Shown here piece after piece: positions 12,287 through 21,276 of a DNA stretch of 21,276 bases. Every line of letters starts with the position of its first letter. Position 1 is the stretch's first letter. The notes beneath the pieces are model-generated. The model was not told the origin of the DNA and did not search any database. It saw only the letters and a program-made list of their open reading frames with translations. The DNA comes from a virus: IMG/VR virus record IMGVR_UViG_3300047498_000031, positions 1-21,276 of that record; one strand, given 5' to 3'. The translations under genes and the position numbers were made by a program.

Positions 12287-14875
12287 ATGGCCGGTCCATC
12301 CGTCTCGATCACCGCCGACGCCACCAGCCTGCGCGCGCAGATTGCGCTCGCGCAGCAAGACCTCAAGACGTTCACCTCCGCGCTGAATAAGACCGCGAAA
12401 GAGGTGCAGGGCGCGGCCGTCGTCACCGACGCGATGACGCAGTCGTTGGGCAAGAACGCGGCCGGTGCCAACGCGGCGACGGCTGCCATCTCCAGCCTGA
12501 AAAATCAGTTGGCCGCCGCGCAGGCCGCCGCCAGAGCTGCCGCCGGCGGACTGGATGAAACGGCCAACAAGGCGCACGGGGCTGCCAGCGCCGGAACCGC
12601 CGTCACCCGCGAGTTTTTCGTCATGGGCGACGAGGTATTGAGGGGCAATTTCTCCCGGATTCCGGGCTCGATGCTGGTGCTGGCAGAACACATGGGCGGG
12701 GTGCTGACGGCCGTCACGGCCATGTCGGGAGGATTGCTTGTCGGCGTGGCTGCCGCTGGCGCGCTGGTAGGCGCTTTTGCCATCCTGATCGTGCGCGCGT
12801 ACGAGGCCCAGAAGGCGCTCACGGCCGTTTATATGGCCGCGTTGCTGCAAGGGCGCGATGCTATCGCGGCGCAGAAGATGGCAAGTTCCGGCGCCGAGAC
12901 CATGCAGAAGGTCGGCAACGTCAGCGCCTCCACGGCCCAAACGCTTAGCAATACCATCGCGACGATCCCGGCCCTGTCGGATGCTTCCAGAGCCGCGCTA
13001 ATGGGCTTGGCGCCCGCGTTGAACCAAGTGCTGCATGCGGGCGATGCTTCGGAGACGGCGAAGTCTCTGGAATCGATCTTCCGCACGACCAGCAGCCTCA
13101 AAGCCTTCGCCACTGAGAACAAGTTGCTGATCGGCGGCCAGAAAGAAGCCTTCGACGCGGCGGAGAAAGCCGGGGACGCATATGCCGCGCAGGGCATCGC
13201 CATCGACGCGCTGAAGGCACGCATCGGACCTGGCTACGACGAGTGGATACAGAAGACGAAGGATTACAAGCAGGCGTTGGCCGAGTCCGGTCAGGAGGGC
13301 GACCTGACCCCAATGGGGGTTGCCGTCAACGCGCCTCCGACGCCGCCCCCAATGATGTCACAGACCGGAATGCGCGCCGAGAGCGACGAGACGGTCCGCG
13401 CCGAAGAAGTCCGCAACCGATATAACGCGACCTTTAGGGAGTCCGCGCTTCTCACCTCCGACATGGCCAATCTGCAAAAGCAGTTGGCCGGGGCCACGAC
13501 GACCGAGCAGCAGACCGAACTTGCCGCTCTCATCAAGATCAACCAGGCCAAGCAGGATGGCCTGAAGCCCGCCGGCGATATGTCGTGGGCGCAGCAGATC
13601 GGGGATGCAGCACAGCAGGCCGGATACAAGGCGGAACAGGCCGCCGCGAGCAGCGGGGCCAAGCGGCTCGCCATCACCGAGGCGGAGCAGAAGGCGGAGG
13701 CCGCGGTCTATCTGGCAGCCTCGAAGGACATGACCCGCACCGACGCGGAGCGGGCGGAGATGGGACACAGGGCCCTCGAACTGCAAATGGGCCTCATCAA
13801 AGAGGAAGCCGCAGGCAGGACGGTCGCCAACAAGAAGTCCAACGAGGAAGTCGTGGCCGGCTACGACGCGCAGATTGCCGCCGCGCGCGGAAACCTCACG
13901 CTGATTATGGCCATCGAGACGGAGAAACTGAATTTCCTGAAGGGCGCCTATGGTGCCGCCAGCGTCGAGTATCTGCGCGCGCAAACCGTGATGGCGTCGA
14001 TCGAGAGGGAGGAGACTCAGCGCGAGATCGAGGAAGCGAAAACCGCCGGCACCGGCGCGATCAACGACCGGAAAGCCGAACTGCAACTCGAACTTGCGCT
14101 GCGAAAGACGACGAAAGAGCAGGAGTTGCAGGCCGAACTTGCGTTCGTCGAAGCAACCGATAAGGCCACCCTGGCATCGGTCGATGCGCTGGTTGCGTCG
14201 CTGGCCCAGGGAACGCAGGCCTACACATTGGCAATGACGGATCGCCGTCGAATGGCCGTGCAGTTCGCCACCGAAGAAACTCGGCTGCGGGCGCAGCAGG
14301 TTGCGGACGAAATGGCTGCCGCGCAGAAAAGGGTGGCGCCCTATCAGCAGGCCTTCGAGAAAATGACGTCTGGCTACAGCACCATGATCGAGGGGCTGAT
14401 GGCCGGCACGACGACGTGGAAGCAGGCGGAGCAAACCGCGTTCAAGGACATGGTCGGCGCGTTCCTGGACATGACCGAACAGATCCTGTCGAAGTGGGCG
14501 GCAGCCCTGGTGATGAAAGAGGCGCTGAACATGACCGCCGACGAGATCATGGTGGCCCAGGATACGACTGCCGGCTGGTCGGCCATCTTTATGAAGATCG
14601 CCTCGCTCGACAGCGGCACGAGCTACGTCCCGCACGACATGGTCGCCACCATCCACCAGGGCGAGATGGTCGTGCCGCGATATGACGCGGATATGATACG
14701 AGGCGGCGGGGGCGGCGTCGGCCACACCTTCAATTACGCGCCGACGATCAACGGAAGCGGTCCGGGCGTCGAGCGGGCGGTACGCGGGACCGGCGAGGAC
14801 ATGCGGCAGTACATGCAACAGATGATGCGCAACGGGCAACTGTCGCTGCCCGGCCGGCAAATGAACCCGCATTGA
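12287..14875 (+). CDS. Tail length tape measure protein
   Basis: This 862-aa protein is the tape measure, whose length sets tail length and which leaves the tail during DNA injection. It has an N-terminal coiled-coil region rich in Ala and Gln (10-100) and a hydrophobic segment at about 139-169 (GGLLVGVAAAGALVGAFAILIV), probably membrane-inserting. Long helical stretches with heptad-like patterns occupy 200-700. The C-terminal motif YVPHDMVATIHQGEMVVPRYDADMI, followed by a Gly run and FNYAPTINGSG, is typical of tape measures of GTA-like tails. No peptidase domain is seen inside it. The ATG lies one base after the T-frame stop. At about 1.5 A per residue, as known for tape measures, the tail would be about 130 nm. 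Confidence 0.95.
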   Translation: MAGPSVSITADATSLRAQIALAQQDLKTFTSALNKTAKEVQGAAVVTDAMTQSLGKNAAGANAATAAISSLKNQLAAAQAAARAAAGGLDETANKAHGAASAGTAVTREFFVMGDEVLRGNFSRIPGSMLVLAEHMGGVLTAVTAMSGGLLVGVAAAGALVGAFAILIVRAYEAQKALTAVYMAALLQGRDAIAAQKMASSGAETMQKVGNVSASTAQTLSNTIATIPALSDASRAALMGLAPALNQVLHAGDASETAKSLESIFRTTSSLKAFATENKLLIGGQKEAFDAAEKAGDAYAAQGIAIDALKARIGPGYDEWIQKTKDYKQALAESGQEGDLTPMGVAVNAPPTPPPMMSQTGMRAESDETVRAEEVRNRYNATFRESALLTSDMANLQKQLAGATTTEQQTELAALIKINQAKQDGLKPAGDMSWAQQIGDAAQQAGYKAEQAAASSGAKRLAITEAEQKAEAAVYLAASKDMTRTDAERAEMGHRALELQMGLIKEEAAGRTVANKKSNEEVVAGYDAQIAAARGNLTLIMAIETEKLNFLKGAYGAASVEYLRAQTVMASIEREETQREIEEAKTAGTGAINDRKAELQLELALRKTTKEQELQAELAFVEATDKATLASVDALVASLAQGTQAYTLAMTDRRRMAVQFATEETRLRAQQVADEMAAAQKRVAPYQQAFEKMTSGYSTMIEGLMAGTTTWKQAEQTAFKDMVGAFLDMTEQILSKWAAALVMKEALNMTADEIMVAQDTTAGWSAIFMKIASLDSGTSYVPHDMVATIHQGEMVVPRYDADMIRGGGGGVGHTFNYAPTINGSGPGVERAVRGTGEDMRQYMQQMMRNGQLSLPGRQMNPH

Positions 14876-15501
14876 TGCCGCCGCTGTTCCCGTGGTTGCT
14901 GGCCGGGTTTTCGGTCGTCAAACGGCCGCAGGCAGGCGCGACCCTCGTGCAGACGGCAGGCAGCGGGCGCCAGATACGCGCCGGCATGTGGACGTATCCG
15001 ACCTGGCAGTGGGACATCAGCTGGGAATACCTGCCGGATGCGCAGGCAAACGGCTGGACATTGAACGATTTTCGCTCGCTGATCGGGTTTTTCCTGGCCC
15101 AATCGGGCGGCTACGGCGCGTTCCCGTTCAAGGATTTGGGCGAGGATGCGGTGACGGCCCAGCTGCTCGGCACGGGCGACGGAAGCACGACCACGTTCAC
15201 CCTGGTCAAGACCTTCGGGATGAGCGGGTTCGCGGGCACGGAGCCCATCGGCTACCTCGACGACACGCAGCCGATGCAGTTCTCGGTCGCCGGCATCGCC
15301 GCCGCGTTCACCGTCAACACCGCGCGGCCGGGCTACCAGCAGGTCGTGTTCGCGGCTGCGCCTGCGGCGGGCGCCGCCATCATCGGCAGCTTCGCATTCG
15401 CCTATTGCTGTCACATCAAGGGCGACGAAATCGACTTCGAGGAAATCATGTCCCATCTCTGGGCGCAGAAGAAAATGACGCTGGAAAGCGTCAAGGCCTG
15501 A
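14875..15501 (+). CDS. Distal tail protein, DUF2460 family (GTA gp12-like)
   Basis: This 208-aa protein matches DUF2460, the distal tail protein of GTA-like tails that joins the tube to the hub. Signatures are KRPQAG, SGRQIRAG, TYPTWQWDISWEYL (40-53), FRSLIGFFLAQSGGYGAFPFKD, the GTGDGSTTTFTLVKTFG strand, and the end EIDFEEIMSHLWAQKKMTLESVKA. The ATG overlaps the tape measure stop (TGATG); a TTG three bases earlier is possible. The stop overlaps the next ATG in the same way. A partial second copy of its N-terminal motif appears at the end of the window (20906 onward). Confidence 0.93.
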   Translation: MPPLFPWLLAGFSVVKRPQAGATLVQTAGSGRQIRAGMWTYPTWQWDISWEYLPDAQANGWTLNDFRSLIGFFLAQSGGYGAFPFKDLGEDAVTAQLLGTGDGSTTTFTLVKTFGMSGFAGTEPIGYLDDTQPMQFSVAGIAAAFTVNTARPGYQQVVFAAAPAAGAAIIGSFAFAYCCHIKGDEIDFEEIMSHLWAQKKMTLESVKA

Positions 15502-16379
15502 TGCGCAGCACGACGCCCGCGCTCGCCGCTTTCCTCGCCACGCGGCCGACGATGCTCTGGGTCTGCGATCTGTTCTCGTTCACGCTGGCGAGCGGCGCCG
15601 CGCTGAATTATGCCAGCGGCGATGCCGACGTGAATTATGCAGGCAAAACGTGGTACGCCACCGGCGCGCTCTCGGTGGACCGCTCGACGTGGTCGGGAAA
15701 AGACACGCTCGATATTCCCACCATGGAAATCACCATTTCCAGCGACGGCACCGATTTCGGCGCGACCAACTTCAAGACCATGCTGCACAATGGCGGTTTC
15801 GACGGCGCCTCCGTGCAGCTCGACCGCGCGATCGGCGCGGAGCCGGGGATTCCGCTCGGCCTGGTGACGCTGTTCGCCGGGCCGATTGGCGCCATCACCC
15901 TCGGCGCGCTGACCGCCAAGATCACCGTCAAGGGCTGGACGGTCGTGCTCCAGCAGTACATGCCGCGAAACGTCTATCAGACGGCATGCACGCACTCGCT
16001 GTATGACGCGAATTGCACTGTCAACCGCGCCGCGCACACCGCGACGAACACGGTGCTGGCCGCCGTGCGCAATACCATCGGCACCAACCCGAACAGCTGG
16101 ATTCTGCCGGGCGGCGCGACTGCGCCCGTGGCCAACCTCATCGGTGGCACGCTGACCATCACCAGCGGCGTCTCGGCCGGCGCGCGCCGCACAATTATCG
16201 CGGCGGTGCCGACGGCGGTCGGCTTTACCTACCCGCTCTATGCGATCCCGGCGCCCGGCGACACGCTGACCTGCACGTATGGCTGCGACAAGACGGCTGC
16301 CACCTGCGCCGCCAGGTTCGGCAATCTCCAGCACATCCGCAGCTTTCCGTTTGTGCCGCCGGCGGAGAAGGGGATTTGA
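15501..16379 (+). CDS. Tail hub protein, DUF2163 family (GTA gp13-like)
   Basis: This 292-aa protein is a DUF2163 member, equivalent to the GTA hub (gp13) and related to lambda gpL in place and fold. It has N-terminal strands with WVCDLFSFTLASGAALNYASGD and TYPE features such as WYATGALSVDRSTWSG. The cysteines stand at 163 and 172 (TACTHSLYDANC) and 258, 262, 269 (LTCTYGCDKTAATC), and the end ARFGNLQHIRSFPFVPP is the family hallmark. Cys in these positions bind an Fe-S cluster in lambda gpL and the GTA hub, so one is likely here. The ATG overlaps the DUF2460 stop (TGATG). The stop overlaps the peptidase start (TTGA). Confidence 0.93.
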   Translation: MRSTTPALAAFLATRPTMLWVCDLFSFTLASGAALNYASGDADVNYAGKTWYATGALSVDRSTWSGKDTLDIPTMEITISSDGTDFGATNFKTMLHNGGFDGASVQLDRAIGAEPGIPLGLVTLFAGPIGAITLGALTAKITVKGWTVVLQQYMPRNVYQTACTHSLYDANCTVNRAAHTATNTVLAAVRNTIGTNPNSWILPGGATAPVANLIGGTLTITSGVSAGARRTIIAAVPTAVGFTYPLYAIPAPGDTLTCTYGCDKTAATCAARFGNLQHIRSFPFVPPAEKGI

Positions 16380-16918
16380 GCGAGCCGGTGCCGCCTCCGT
16401 TCATTCCGTTGCCGGCGCTGGACCCGGGCAGCGTGACGCCGTCGCAAGAACGCGCCCTGCGCAACGCGATCATCAAGGAGGCCCTGTCCTGGGTCGGCAC
16501 GCCATACGCGCAGCAGGCGGCGGTTAAAGGCGCGGCCGTGGACTGCGTCATGCTGATGGTCTCGGCCATGGTCGCCGGCGGCATTTTGCTCCCGTTCGAC
16601 CCGCGTCCGTACCCGCCGCTGTTCCATTTGCACCGGGACGATGAACGCTATCTCGGCTGGCTGACCGCCATCGGCAACGAGGTGGCCTCGCCGCAACCGG
16701 GAGATTTCGTGTTGTGGAAGTTCGGGCGCGTCTACAGTCATGGCGGCGTCATCATTGCGCCCGGCGTGGTCTGCAACGCCTCCAGCCTGCACCGTCGCTG
16801 CACGACGAACGACATGGGCGAGGCGTGGCTTGCCACCATGCGCCAGCGCGGCGTGACGGTCGCGCGACCGCGCAAGTTCTTTGACGCCTTCGTATCGCTG
16901 CGGGTGCCGCATGGTTAG
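16376..16918 (+). CDS. Tail-tip NlpC/P60 cell-wall peptidase (GTA gp14-like)
   Basis: This 180-aa cysteine peptidase of the NlpC/P60 fold is expected to cut peptidoglycan stem peptides during entry. Motifs are EALSWVGTPYAQQAAVKGAAVDCVML, with nucleophile C57, and VYSHGGVII with H122. The PQPGDFVLWKF strand (107-116) lies between them. The usual third polar residue falls at N134 (VVCNAS) where many members have His. The start is a TTG at 16376 overlapping the hub stop (TTGA) with GGAG at 16364-16367 eight bases upstream; no ATG exists near the N-terminus. Its place after DUF2163 is exactly that of GTA gp14. The C-terminal basic segment ends before the tip gene, whose ATG lies inside it. Confidence 0.9.
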   Translation: MSEPVPPPFIPLPALDPGSVTPSQERALRNAIIKEALSWVGTPYAQQAAVKGAAVDCVMLMVSAMVAGGILLPFDPRPYPPLFHLHRDDERYLGWLTAIGNEVASPQPGDFVLWKFGRVYSHGGVIIAPGVVCNASSLHRRCTTNDMGEAWLATMRQRGVTVARPRKFFDAFVSLRVPHG

Positions 16919-19844
16919 CAGCCTGATGGGCGGAAGCGCCGCCAAGACGATCACAAAATACACGGGGCTCCAGCTGCAAACGTCGGCGCAGGGGCTTGTC
17001 ATCCCCATTGTGTGGGGCGCCAACGTCATCGCCGCAAACTTGATCTGGATGAACGACTTTCAGGCGCACTCGAAGGGCGGCGGGAAAGGCGGCGGGAAAG
17101 GCGGTGGCGGCAAGGGTGCTACGTCATACACGTACTCGGCGGCTGTGATCCTCGCGTTGTGTGAGGGACCGATCCTCACCATCGGCGTGATGTGGTCGAA
17201 CGGCGCGCTGGAGGATCTGACCGGGCTCAATCTGTCGCTGGAAAACGGCACGGCGACGCAGACCGCGCCTGCCTGGATTGAGAGCAATTATGCGTCCGAG
17301 GCGATGCCTTATGCGTACACGGCGTTCCTGTTCTCGTCGTACTACAACCTCGGCTCGGCCGCATCGCTGCCCAGCGCGAAATTCGAGGTGGTCTGCTACT
17401 CCGGCGTCAACCAGTTCGGCGAAAGGACGACATCGGACACGCCGGCCGGATCGACCGTAATCCACTTCAGCGACACCAGCCTCGTGCGCGTCGGCATGCC
17501 GATCATGCAAGTGGGCGCCGGCAGCATCCAGGGCGGCACGACAATCGTCTCGATTGCGCCCAACGCCAGCGTCACGATTTCGCTGCAAACGTTGCTGGAC
17601 ATACCATCCGGCGTCCCAATCATCATCGGCTACGAAGATGCGAATTTCGCCTTCATCATCAACGATTTTCTGACCAACCCGCAATATGGCGTGCTCGGGT
17701 TTCCGGTTGCGAGCATCGACCCGGTTTCGTTCGCGCTGTTCAACACATACTGCCTGGCGCAAGGGCTTTTCGCCTCGCCGGCGCTGATCGCGCAGGAACA
17801 GGCGCTCACCACGCTGCAACGCTGGTGTGCGCTCTGCAACACATGGATTTTCTGGTCGGGCAACGCGTTGAAATTCGTGCCGTTGGGCGACGCGGAAATC
17901 ACCGCGAACGGCGCCACGTACACGCCGATCACCACCATTGTCTACGACCTCGATCTCGACGACTTCCTGTTCGATCCGAAGTCCGAGGCGCCCATAACCG
18001 TCATGCGGATTGATCCAGCCGACGGCTACAATCGCGTCCAGCTGGATTGCAAGGACCGCGCGAACTCGTACGCCGACGCCCCGGTCTATTGGGAGGATCA
18101 GGCGCTTATCGACCAGTACGGCCTCTTGCAAAGCAACACGGTGTCGGCGCCGGAAGTGTGCGATCTCGGCATCGGCGCGGTCATGGCCGCGCTCATCGGC
18201 CAGCGCAGCAGCTTTCAGCGCAACACCTATTCGTTCAAGCTGCCACTGACCTTCATCCTGTTGGAGCCGGGCGACCTGCTCACGATCACCGATCCGATCC
18301 TGGGCCTGGAGGCGGTGCCCGTGCGCGTCCGAACCGTCGACGAGGACGCCTCGATGGTGCTGACTGTCGTAGCCGAGGAATACACCGGCACTTTGGGGCA
18401 GGTGCTCTATGCGCGACCGCAGACGTCGGCCAGCAGTCCGCCGCCGGTCAGCACGTCGGTCGATCCCGGCCCGGTCAATGCGCCTTTGATCGTGGAGCCG
18501 GACCTGAGCGTGACCGGCGGCCAGTCGCAGATTTGGATAGGTGCGAGCGGCGGACGCTGGTGGGGCGGGGCGGACGTCTATCTGTCGGCCGACTCCGAGA
18601 CGTACGCGCTGGTGGGCACCATCACGGCCGCGACGCAGCAGGGCGTGCTCCTGGCGGCACTGCCGGCCCAGCCGGACCCCGATCTGGCCGACATCCTCCA
18701 GGTCGATTTCACCGAGAGCCTGTCGGTCCTGTCTACGGCGGTGGCGCAGGCCGACGCGGATGCGCTGCGCACGGCGTCGCTGATCGACAGCGAAATCGTC
18801 AGCTACGGCACGGTCACGCCGACCGGGCAGTACGCGGCCAACCTGACGTATCTGCGGCGCGGCGGCTACAGCACCACGACGGCCGCGCATCTGGCCGGCG
18901 CCGCGTTCTCCCGAATCAACCCGGCCACGGTGTTCTCGTACCCGCTGCCGACCGCGTATGTCGGCAAGGAAATCTGGATCAAGCTGGCGAGCTTCAACAC
19001 CTTCGGCAGTGCGGCCGAGAGCATCGCCGACGTCGTCGCGTACAGCTACACGCCGGCCGGCGCCCCCAACCCGGCCGGGTCGCAGCTGCTCCCGCTGGTC
19101 AACGGCGACACGCCGGCCGCGTTCATCATTACGCCGGCAGGGCAGCTTGTCTACACACCCTCGGTCTCATGGAATAACCAAGTGTCTGACACGCTGATCG
19201 TGCAATATCTGACGCTCGGGACGCACGCGGCGCGGCCCGCGTCGCCCTCGATCCCGGCCGGCGGGACGTGCCTGTACGCCGAATCCGACACGGGGCAGAG
19301 TTTCGTGTGGTCCGGGTCCGGCTGGACGCAGATCGGCGCGGGCACGCCGCTGGTCATCGAGGCGGCCGGGGCAGTGCAGGCCGCCACGACCCTCAATTTC
19401 GCGAGCAGCCTGACGGCCACCCTGGCGGGCGGCGTGCTCACCATCGCCGTGCCCGCGCCCGCGATCACCTACGGCAACCTGCCGGCCGAACTGTCGCAAC
19501 TGCCTGTCAGTTTCGCGTTTCCGGGCGCGGCCGCCGCCGGAGCCACGCTGAATTTCGTCGTGCCGAGCGCGCTGACCGTGCCGGCCAACCTGGCGGGCCT
19601 GGTGGTCTATGCCGGCACCGCGCCAACCGGCGCCGTCGCGCTGACCGTCAAGCACATCGCCGGCGGCACCACGACCACGCTGGGGACCGCGACGCTGGCG
19701 GCCGGGTCGCACACGACGACCACGCTCTCGACGCAGGCCGGCGCCTCGCTGGCGGCCGGGGACGTGCTGCAAGTCGCACTGCCCGGCACCGCGGACGCCA
19801 CGCTCGCCGACCTGTCGATCTCCGTCGTCACGGGGAGGGTCTGA
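16911..19844 (+). CDS. Large tail tip / host-specificity protein (GTA gp15-like position)
   Basis: This 977-aa protein is the tail tip or host-specificity protein. The order of parts is: an N-terminal IPIVWGANVIAANLIWMNDF segment; a Gly/Lys linker (residues 55-69); SYTYSAAVILALCEGPI, typical of baseplate-hub-like proteins; an inserted beta domain at about 177-241, shared with the head-tail adaptor; and a central region, WCALCNTWIFWSGNALKFVPLGD through EPGDLLTITDP. Beta repeats follow, with SFVWSGSGW at about 797-805 and a C-terminal Thr/Ala-rich beta domain (about 860-977), probably receptor-facing. The chosen ATG overlaps the peptidase gene by 8 bases; ATG 16926 and TTG 16881 are alternatives. 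It should form the central tip that contacts the host surface. Confidence 0.88.
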   Translation: MVSSLMGGSAAKTITKYTGLQLQTSAQGLVIPIVWGANVIAANLIWMNDFQAHSKGGGKGGGKGGGGKGATSYTYSAAVILALCEGPILTIGVMWSNGALEDLTGLNLSLENGTATQTAPAWIESNYASEAMPYAYTAFLFSSYYNLGSAASLPSAKFEVVCYSGVNQFGERTTSDTPAGSTVIHFSDTSLVRVGMPIMQVGAGSIQGGTTIVSIAPNASVTISLQTLLDIPSGVPIIIGYEDANFAFIINDFLTNPQYGVLGFPVASIDPVSFALFNTYCLAQGLFASPALIAQEQALTTLQRWCALCNTWIFWSGNALKFVPLGDAEITANGATYTPITTIVYDLDLDDFLFDPKSEAPITVMRIDPADGYNRVQLDCKDRANSYADAPVYWEDQALIDQYGLLQSNTVSAPEVCDLGIGAVMAALIGQRSSFQRNTYSFKLPLTFILLEPGDLLTITDPILGLEAVPVRVRTVDEDASMVLTVVAEEYTGTLGQVLYARPQTSASSPPPVSTSVDPGPVNAPLIVEPDLSVTGGQSQIWIGASGGRWWGGADVYLSADSETYALVGTITAATQQGVLLAALPAQPDPDLADILQVDFTESLSVLSTAVAQADADALRTASLIDSEIVSYGTVTPTGQYAANLTYLRRGGYSTTTAAHLAGAAFSRINPATVFSYPLPTAYVGKEIWIKLASFNTFGSAAESIADVVAYSYTPAGAPNPAGSQLLPLVNGDTPAAFIITPAGQLVYTPSVSWNNQVSDTLIVQYLTLGTHAARPASPSIPAGGTCLYAESDTGQSFVWSGSGWTQIGAGTPLVIEAAGAVQAATTLNFASSLTATLAGGVLTIAVPAPAITYGNLPAELSQLPVSFAFPGAAAAGATLNFVVPSALTVPANLAGLVVYAGTAPTGAVALTVKHIAGGTTTTLGTATLAAGSHTTTTLSTQAGASLAAGDVLQVALPGTADATLADLSISVVTGRV
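17073..17117 (+). repeat. Lys-Gly coding repeat in the tip protein
   Basis: An in-frame array of AAG/AAA GGC GGC GGG units encodes KGGGKGGGKGGGGKG (residues 55-69 of the tip protein). The units are near-identical in DNA and suit copy-number change by slippage. The product is a flexible basic linker between the first N-terminal strand region and the conserved SYTYSAAV segment. Confidence 0.85.
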
Positions 19845-20902
19845 TGGCGCTTTATGCGTTCGATGGGTTCGACCACTACGGCAACTATACGTCCAATGGA
19901 GGCGATATGCTGTCGCGCAGCGGGCGGCTGATCTGGACGGGCAATCCCTCGCTGAATGGATCGTCGGTCGGCCGCGCGGGCTACGGCAAATCCGTCTTTT
20001 TCTCATCGGGCGGCCTCGGGCTGATCGGCGTGCTGGCCAGCCAATTCACCCATTTTTTCGCCGGCTTCGCCCTCCAAATGACGCAACCCGGAAACGTCAG
20101 CGTCGCGTTTCTGGATATGACGGCGGGAAGCGGCGGCACGATCCAATTCAGCCTGGTATTCAATTTTACCACCGCGACAATCCAGATTTTCAACGGGGCG
20201 GGCGCAATGCAGATATCGTCCGCCGCAGGAGCCTTCACGCCCACCCTGTTCAACTATGTCGAGATCGGCGCTGTCGTCGCCGCGTCGGGGTCGGTCACGG
20301 TACGCATCAACGGGGTGCAGGTTCTCACGGTAGCGTTCGACACGGTGGCGAGCGCGAATACCTGGGTCAACGGAATGTCGTTCTCGAACATCGGCGGCGG
20401 CAGCGGAAATCAATACGCGCTCGACGACCTCTATTGGTGCGACAACACGACAGGGCCGGGCGCCAATCCGATGAACACGTTTCTCGGCGATGTTGCCGTG
20501 GAAACGCTCTATCCGGCCAGCAACCACGCGGTCAGCTGGACGCCGCTCGCCGGTACAAACTGGCAGGAAATCTCCGAGACCGGCATGGACGCGGACACGA
20601 CGTACAATGCGACGGCGACGGTGGCCAACGTGGACACGTTCAATTTCCAGTCGCTTCGCGCGGCGACGAATCAGGTGCTCGCGGTGCAGGTGGTCGGCGC
20701 CTACCGCAAGGACGACGCCACGGCGCGCGTCGTGCAGCAGCGGGTGCTCAGCGGCGCCGTGGTCGGGCAGGGCACCGCGCTCTCGATCCCGACGACATAC
20801 ACGTATGCGGTCGATGTGTTCGTCGAAGACCCGAACACGGCGGCCGCGTGGACCGTGGCGGGTGTCGACGCGCTCCAGGCGGGATATGAGCTGACCGCCT
20901 GA
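19844..20902 (+). CDS. Tail fibre-associated protein, probable lectin-like (LamG-type) fold
   Basis: This 352-aa, beta-rich protein has a first part (about 1-220) that looks like a concanavalin/LamG jelly-roll: FDGFDHYG at the start, strands FFAGFALQM and SVAFLDM, then FNYVEIGAVVAASGSVTVRINGVQVLTVAFDT and ALDDLYWCDNTTGP. The second part (230-352) includes GDVAVETLYPASN, WQEISETGMDADTTYNATATVANVDTF, LAVQVVGAYRKDDATARVVQQRV and the ending WTVAGVDALQAGYELTA, a pattern seen in phage tail proteins. The ATG overlaps the tip stop (TGATG) with GGGGAGGG (19832-19838) upstream. It is likely a surface or glycan-binding tail component. The fold is inferred from strand pattern, not proved. Confidence 0.75.
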   Translation: MALYAFDGFDHYGNYTSNGGDMLSRSGRLIWTGNPSLNGSSVGRAGYGKSVFFSSGGLGLIGVLASQFTHFFAGFALQMTQPGNVSVAFLDMTAGSGGTIQFSLVFNFTTATIQIFNGAGAMQISSAAGAFTPTLFNYVEIGAVVAASGSVTVRINGVQVLTVAFDTVASANTWVNGMSFSNIGGGSGNQYALDDLYWCDNTTGPGANPMNTFLGDVAVETLYPASNHAVSWTPLAGTNWQEISETGMDADTTYNATATVANVDTFNFQSLRAATNQVLAVQVVGAYRKDDATARVVQQRVLSGAVVGQGTALSIPTTYTYAVDVFVEDPNTAAAWTVAGVDALQAGYELTA

Positions 20903-20905
20903 GCC

Positions 20906-21276
20906 ATGGCCGGGCGCGTCTCCCAGCTTGTCGTCGAGACGATCAACGGCGCTGCTGCGAACCTGCGCGCGTCGCAGTTGGTCGTGGAAGTCATGGTCGG
21001 CGTCAACGGCCATCTGCGCGTGTCGCAGGTTGTCGTCGAGACGCTGGTCGGCATTGCCTCGCACGCGCGCGCAAGCCAGGTCGTGGTCGAAGTTCTCTAC
21101 GTCATCCCGCTGCTGCCGGCGGTGACGCTGCCGCTGGTGTTCCCGGACCTGCCGGGAATCAGCTGGCCCGTCATTATGCGGCCCACATTCAAGAGTGCGG
21201 AAGCCACGTCGGCGGCGAGCGGGCGCAGCAAGCGCGTCACCTTCAGCACATGGCCAATCTGGGAATGGGATATCAG
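20906..21276 (+). CDS. Partial tail protein: RxSQxVVE repeats plus second DUF2460-like start
   Basis: The frame is open from ATG 20906, three bases after the previous stop, to the window end, so the 3' part is missing (123 codons seen). Residues 4-65 are four copies of a 17-residue unit with consensus R(V/A)SQxVVE. Residues 66-90 are Pro/Leu-rich (IPLLPAVTLPLVFPDLPG). From 91 onward MRPTF...SGRSKRVTFSTWPIWEWDI matches the DUF2460 gene at 14875: KRP, SGR, TYPTWQWDI in the same order with a one-residue gap. It may be a second distal-tail-like module carried on a repeat stalk. The full domain content cannot be judged here. Confidence 0.75.
   Translation, partial: MAGRVSQLVVETINGAAANLRASQLVVEVMVGVNGHLRVSQVVVETLVGIASHARASQVVVEVLYVIPLLPAVTLPLVFPDLPGISWPVIMRPTFKSAEATSAASGRSKRVTFSTWPIWEWDI
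20915..21118 (+). repeat. Four 51-bp coding repeats (17-aa RxSQxVVE units)
   Basis: Arg codons that begin the units lie at 20915, 20966, 21017 and 21068, giving an exact 51-bp period. The protein units begin RVSQLVVET, RASQLVVEV, RVSQVVVET and RASQVVVEV, so type V/T and type A/V units alternate. This looks like duplication of a two-unit block. Confidence 0.85.

Follow-up and report, generated by a model that had tools for sequence, protein, structure and literature searches.

The window analysed here, 21,276 bp long, comprises an entire viral record (IMGVR_UViG_3300047498_000031); its end is also the end of the contig, with no sequence further to the right. Its tail genes all lie on the plus strand. 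They begin with a tape measure protein gene (12287–14875), assigned by its composition and by a position that matches that in relatives, and a core DUF2460 gene encoding a plain distal tail protein (Dit; 14872–15501; PF09343, E = 8e-27), for which a TTG start is listed and an ATG at 14875 is equally possible. Homologs of a DUF2163 hub gene (15501–16379) and an NlpC/P60 peptidase gene (16382–16918) follow, both recognized by similarity to the annotated genes of a related locus (L004), and then a gene for a tail tip or megatron-like protein (16911–19844) that matches a Brevundimonas phage tip attachment protein at 37%. The plain DUF2460 gene thus occupies the core slot, while a LamG/ConA-like gene of phrog_2448 (19844–20902) and a repeat-bearing DUF2460 gene (20906–21276) stand behind the tip gene, separated from each other by 3 bp. 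The initial annotation had placed this second distal-tail start far outside the tail core; it lies two genes past the tail-tip gene. The LamG gene directly upstream, presumed here to encode the partner of the repeats, had not been connected with it. At the opposite contig end, positions 1–99 hold 3.7 perfect copies of the 27-mer CGATCCGCCTGCCACCGCTCGCCAGTC, directly followed by a degenerate 64-bp array (102–269); this end may fall inside a repeat for assembly reasons.

The last ORF has its ATG at 20906 and runs off the end of the contig. The 123 residues present comprise four RxSQxVVE units of 17 residues (51 bp) each (20915–21118, with starts at 20915, 20966, 21017, and 21068), followed by the beginning of a DUF2460 domain. 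The units read RVSQLVVETINGAAANL, RASQLVVEVMVGVNGHL, RVSQVVVETLVGIASHA, and RASQVVVEVLYVIPLLP, and homologous arrays occur in relatives. The 17-residue period is exact across all four units: lag 17 gives 27 identities, and none of 10,000 shuffles exceeds 19 at any lag from 1 to 35. An alternation of unit types had been read as block duplication, which is rejected at the DNA level: units 1 and 3 are alike (37/51 identical positions), units 2 and 4 (27/51) score as low as the remaining pairs, and Tandem Repeats Finder detects no DNA array in the repeat region. Because units 2 and 4 are dissimilar in DNA, the V/A alternation is no evidence of such a duplication. The units alternate polar and hydrophobic residues and have a strong beta propensity. 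AlphaFold gives them no structure (pLDDT about 33–45) in either of two models, one of which is a chain joined to the LamG protein and both of which derive from shallow alignments.

The DUF2460 segment (21125–21274) covers the first 50 residues of the domain before the contig ends. Residues 74–123 of the ORF align to the core Dit (14872–15501) by BLASTP with 40% identity over 50 residues (E = 2e-7), and a window-free HMM, built solely from the DUF2460 domains of other phages, scores 43 bits across 49 residues of the ORF. The match is therefore significant in a profile search, and the joining of a second Dit start to 17-residue repeats, as initially annotated, is borne out by the ORF, the period, and the domain match. 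A Pfam search of the last ORF returns no DUF2460 call, as the fragment includes just a quarter of the domain. In all relatives examined, the same N-terminal part runs on into a complete DUF2460 domain of about 200 residues (Pfam E values of 1e-41 and 6e-28). The complete fusion matches two proteins of the PDB by sequence, the distal tail protein Rcc01695 of RcGTA (6tba) and the Dit of roseophage R4C (8gtc). Foldseek finds the Dit fold in the model of one relative, L011 (8gtc_G, E = 1.7e-10, TM-score of 0.75 on the target). Judged by sequence, the last gene is the start of a DUF2460 (Dit) protein behind a repeat arm.

Rcc01695 (gp12) and the R4C Dit carry the same DUF2460 domain (PF09343) by sequence, and for 8gtc also by fold. 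Like most of the relatives, they occupy the slot between tape measure and hub. Their chains of 210–214 residues lack a repeat arm, whereas the window copy has one, is the second of its genome, and follows the tip gene. Within the window, it is the plain copy that sits between the tape measure and the DUF2163 hub gene.

Relatives carrying the fusion were found with a degenerate two-unit DNA pattern, and further loci came from LamG and DUF2460 searches. Direct searches with the 123-residue protein against phages, viral_contigs, and genome_contigs gave no match at default limits, nor did a related-locus search with the tip protein. A repeat-only tblastn against cultured phages was equally negative; cultured phages do contain such repeats in genes adjoining LamG genes. 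Repeats joined to a complete DUF2460 domain occur in at least 19 distinct other genomes, where the fusion is usually the sole DUF2460 of its record and stands at the place of the distal tail gene. The gene order in relatives is tape measure, LamG-like, repeat::DUF2460, DUF2163, NlpC/P60, and tip. The pairing of a repeat stalk with a tail-plug domain had been regarded as exceptional; among these phages it is widespread, and PHROG 2913 already includes it. Other arrangements also occur. In L033, L054, and L056, some repeats sit between two domains, and the long DUF2460 proteins of L054 (11064–12860) and L056 (12599–14011) have extra repeat kinds (FAGRxxR-like and VSKQVQFVA) preceding the RxSQ units, reminiscent of stacked modules for docking or spacing. 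Three relatives (L063/L074, L068, and L069) encode two tandem DUF2460 genes, of which the N-extended copy adjoins LamG and the plain copy lies on the hub side; in L068 and L069, the extension contains degenerate repeats at most. The layout of the window, with a plain core Dit and a LamG/repeat-Dit pair behind the tip gene, is absent from every other locus fetched. Because the plain copy faces the hub and the N-extended copy adjoins LamG in the window and in these three relatives, the arrangement suggests a plain structural Dit alongside one that bears the adhesin, either mixed in one ring or in a second ring.

The neighbor of the repeats is highly consistent. Among 23 loci selected by the repeat pattern alone, 21 have a gene of a single LamG-like family immediately before the repeat gene; three locus pairs are identical or nearly identical, and without them the count is 18 of 20. 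L032 has repeats and no LamG gene was found there, and in L037 LamG and repeats are one gap apart. With a strict automatic gene caller, LamG is upstream in 17/23, where a gene drawn at random from these loci would be expected to give 2.5. Loci were also selected by DUF2460 alone, using a narrower DUF2460 alignment and automatic counts after removal of near-identical copies and of loci lacking upstream sequence. Here, an arm and LamG occur together in 8 loci, an arm without LamG in 2, a plain DUF2460 with LamG in none, and a plain DUF2460 without LamG in 45 (Fisher p = 4e-8, a guide only since the genomes are related). Both exceptions prove on inspection to be calling errors: the upstream ORF of L132 has an end almost identical to that of the LamG protein of L089, and the “arm” of L142 is out-of-frame sequence ahead of the true start.

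The pairing also persists when the repeats are attached to something other than DUF2460. In the cultured S20 virus, the anchor is DUF2163; L030 uses a phrog_1082 tail assembly domain, and L033 a phrog_394 tail protein whose domain we take from its sequence motifs to resemble P22 gp4/T7 gp11. Stand-alone repeat proteins keep it as well (L012, L013, L029, L034, and Mesorhizobium phage Cp1R7A-A1). Read-through from the LamG gene into the repeat gene was considered and rejected, as about a third of the junctions are in frame and all three stop codons occur. Searches of open-access papers returned no description of the consistent pairing of repeats and LamG across different anchors, and nothing relevant on a link of LamG proteins with Dit or tail repeats.

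The LamG protein gives no match in a Pfam search. AlphaFold models it as a sandwich with pLDDT mostly above 90, and Foldseek relates this model to ConA-like lectins and an alginate lyase (E about 1e-7). The protein is thus predicted to have a ConA-like lectin/lyase fold, and this fold is what points to glycan binding.

The reading we favor, with a probability of roughly 0.6, is that the repeats form a flexible docking arm that holds the upstream LamG protein on a DUF2460 Dit. The physical binding, a ratio of one LamG per unit, and the binding of glycans would all be parts of this model. The DUF2460 part would be built into the ring that terminates the tail tube, and the repeat arm would exit at the junction of ring and hub. 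The arm would emerge at the tail tip because, in RcGTA, the distal tail protein has its N-terminus where it touches hub and megatron (PMC7296036). Several LamG copies could then attach to the repeated R-x-S-Q-x-V-V-E strands and surround the tail tip with a collar that binds glycans. The suggestion of an accessory fibre plugged onto the tail survives in part: the idea of fastening an adhesin fits the evidence best, whereas a duplicated core Dit as the source of the plug does not.

A partial parallel is found in phage JBD30, whose Dit gp49 (8rk3) has an N-terminal arm in the form of a long loop that wraps the tail fibres gp47 and gp48 (PMC11445458). An N-terminal arm before the Dit domain is common to gp49 and the window ORF, the Dit part gives a weak fold match, and the gene numbers of gp47 and gp48 just precede gp49, as the LamG gene precedes the repeat gene by 3 bp. 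The two arms differ in composition, and that of JBD30 is not described as tandem repeats (PMC11445458). Moreover, gp47 and gp48 are described as nitrilase-like or unclassified and not as LamG, and gp49 has two Dit-type sandwiches in one chain. “Evolved” Dits of lactococcal and other Gram-positive siphophages are reported to contain inserted carbohydrate-binding modules (PMC10688798, PMC7291167). Such Dits likewise place glycan-binding capacity on the Dit ring, which the fold suggests for the present case; their binding module is within the Dit chain, whereas in the window phage the arm would carry it as a protein of its own.

Competing explanations concern the contact between arm and lectin as well as the source of the second Dit. 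The repeats could be a self-contained beta-structured stalk, such as a trimeric beta fibre, that keeps domains apart, with LamG as a mere neighbor that it does not contact. The alternation of polar and hydrophobic residues with its strong beta propensity speaks for such a stalk, as do the spacer-like repeats between two domains in L033, L054, and L056. However, a spacer needs no tie to LamG, yet LamG accompanies the repeats on unrelated anchors and in stand-alone repeat proteins, and AlphaFold gives no fold for the repeat monomer; we consider this explanation rather doubtful. The modeling speaks against docking: when a Trp was put in place of the LamG stop codon to link LamG and arm in one chain, AlphaFold predicted no contact, albeit from a shallow alignment of 24 rows. 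The adjacency of LamG could also stem from the co-inheritance of neighboring genes without contact.

The origin first proposed was a recent duplication of the window's core Dit, with the second DUF2460 reused as a plug for an accessory fibre, and two DUF2460 starts 6 kb apart in one genome do invite this reading. Such a duplication is disfavored because the segment resembles the DUF2460 of other phages more than the core copy: within the 50 residues available, it is nearer to the former, and as a 53-residue query it reaches a higher score with 11 of the 18 other DUF2460s tested than with the core copy. In addition, repeat::DUF2460 behind LamG occurs independently in many genomes, where the fusion is the sole Dit, and we regard a local duplicate as quite improbable. 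These comparisons, over a stretch of 50 residues that is too short for a tree, argue for a cassette of LamG and repeat::DUF2460 that was acquired, retained, or moved. A remnant, or a repeat protein with a DUF2460 fragment and no working Dit domain, is a still less likely identity for the last ORF. The window does stop inside the domain, but relatives continue the same N-terminal part through the whole domain, about 200 residues long.

The domain, its fold, and its Dit role are already known, and PHROG 2913 contains the fusion without naming it. This family, annotated as “glycoside hydrolase”, includes the complete fusion, with a match that starts inside the repeats; PHROG 13560 is the repeat alone, PHROG 2448 is the LamG protein, and both are annotated as unknown. 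No annotation as Dit, docking repeat, or partner exists for any of the three. The label of PHROG 2913 is apparently wrong, since it agrees with neither the identification as DUF2460 nor the fold, and recognizing DUF2460 corrects it for a distal tail protein. An example is the DUF2460 distal tail gene of the S20 virus (TVGG_00033; L003, 5623–6225), labelled “glycoside hydrolase” via PHROG 2913.

If the repeats are docking tags, PHROGs 2913, 13560, and 2448 gain a function, the stoichiometry of virion adhesins might be readable from sequence, and the exchange of lectins between phages without rebuilding the tail becomes testable. A wider proposal, which we put forward tentatively as a possibility, is a general plug-in system in tailed phages, in which short repeat tags are docking arrays for a LamG-type lectin from the gene just upstream. 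Such tags could be grafted on a Dit, a hub, or a short-tail adaptor or stand alone, would come in several sequence kinds, one per lectin, and would set the number of lectins displayed through their copy number.

The cultured Brevundimonas phages Polewnik, Delta, and Fanboy have two LamG genes in a row, and the next protein carries two kinds of short repeat, a K-x-x-x-Y-A-V-L type and an R-type ending in EVL (L005, 3170–5620; L070, 9628–11007; L072, 10060–11442). The two kinds might correspond to one per lectin. Small repeat proteins also follow a post-tip LamG in L059 (17113–17409) and L042 (5253–5663), with SSKFLGYAVLAPP units and RAAQ units, respectively, and no DUF2460.
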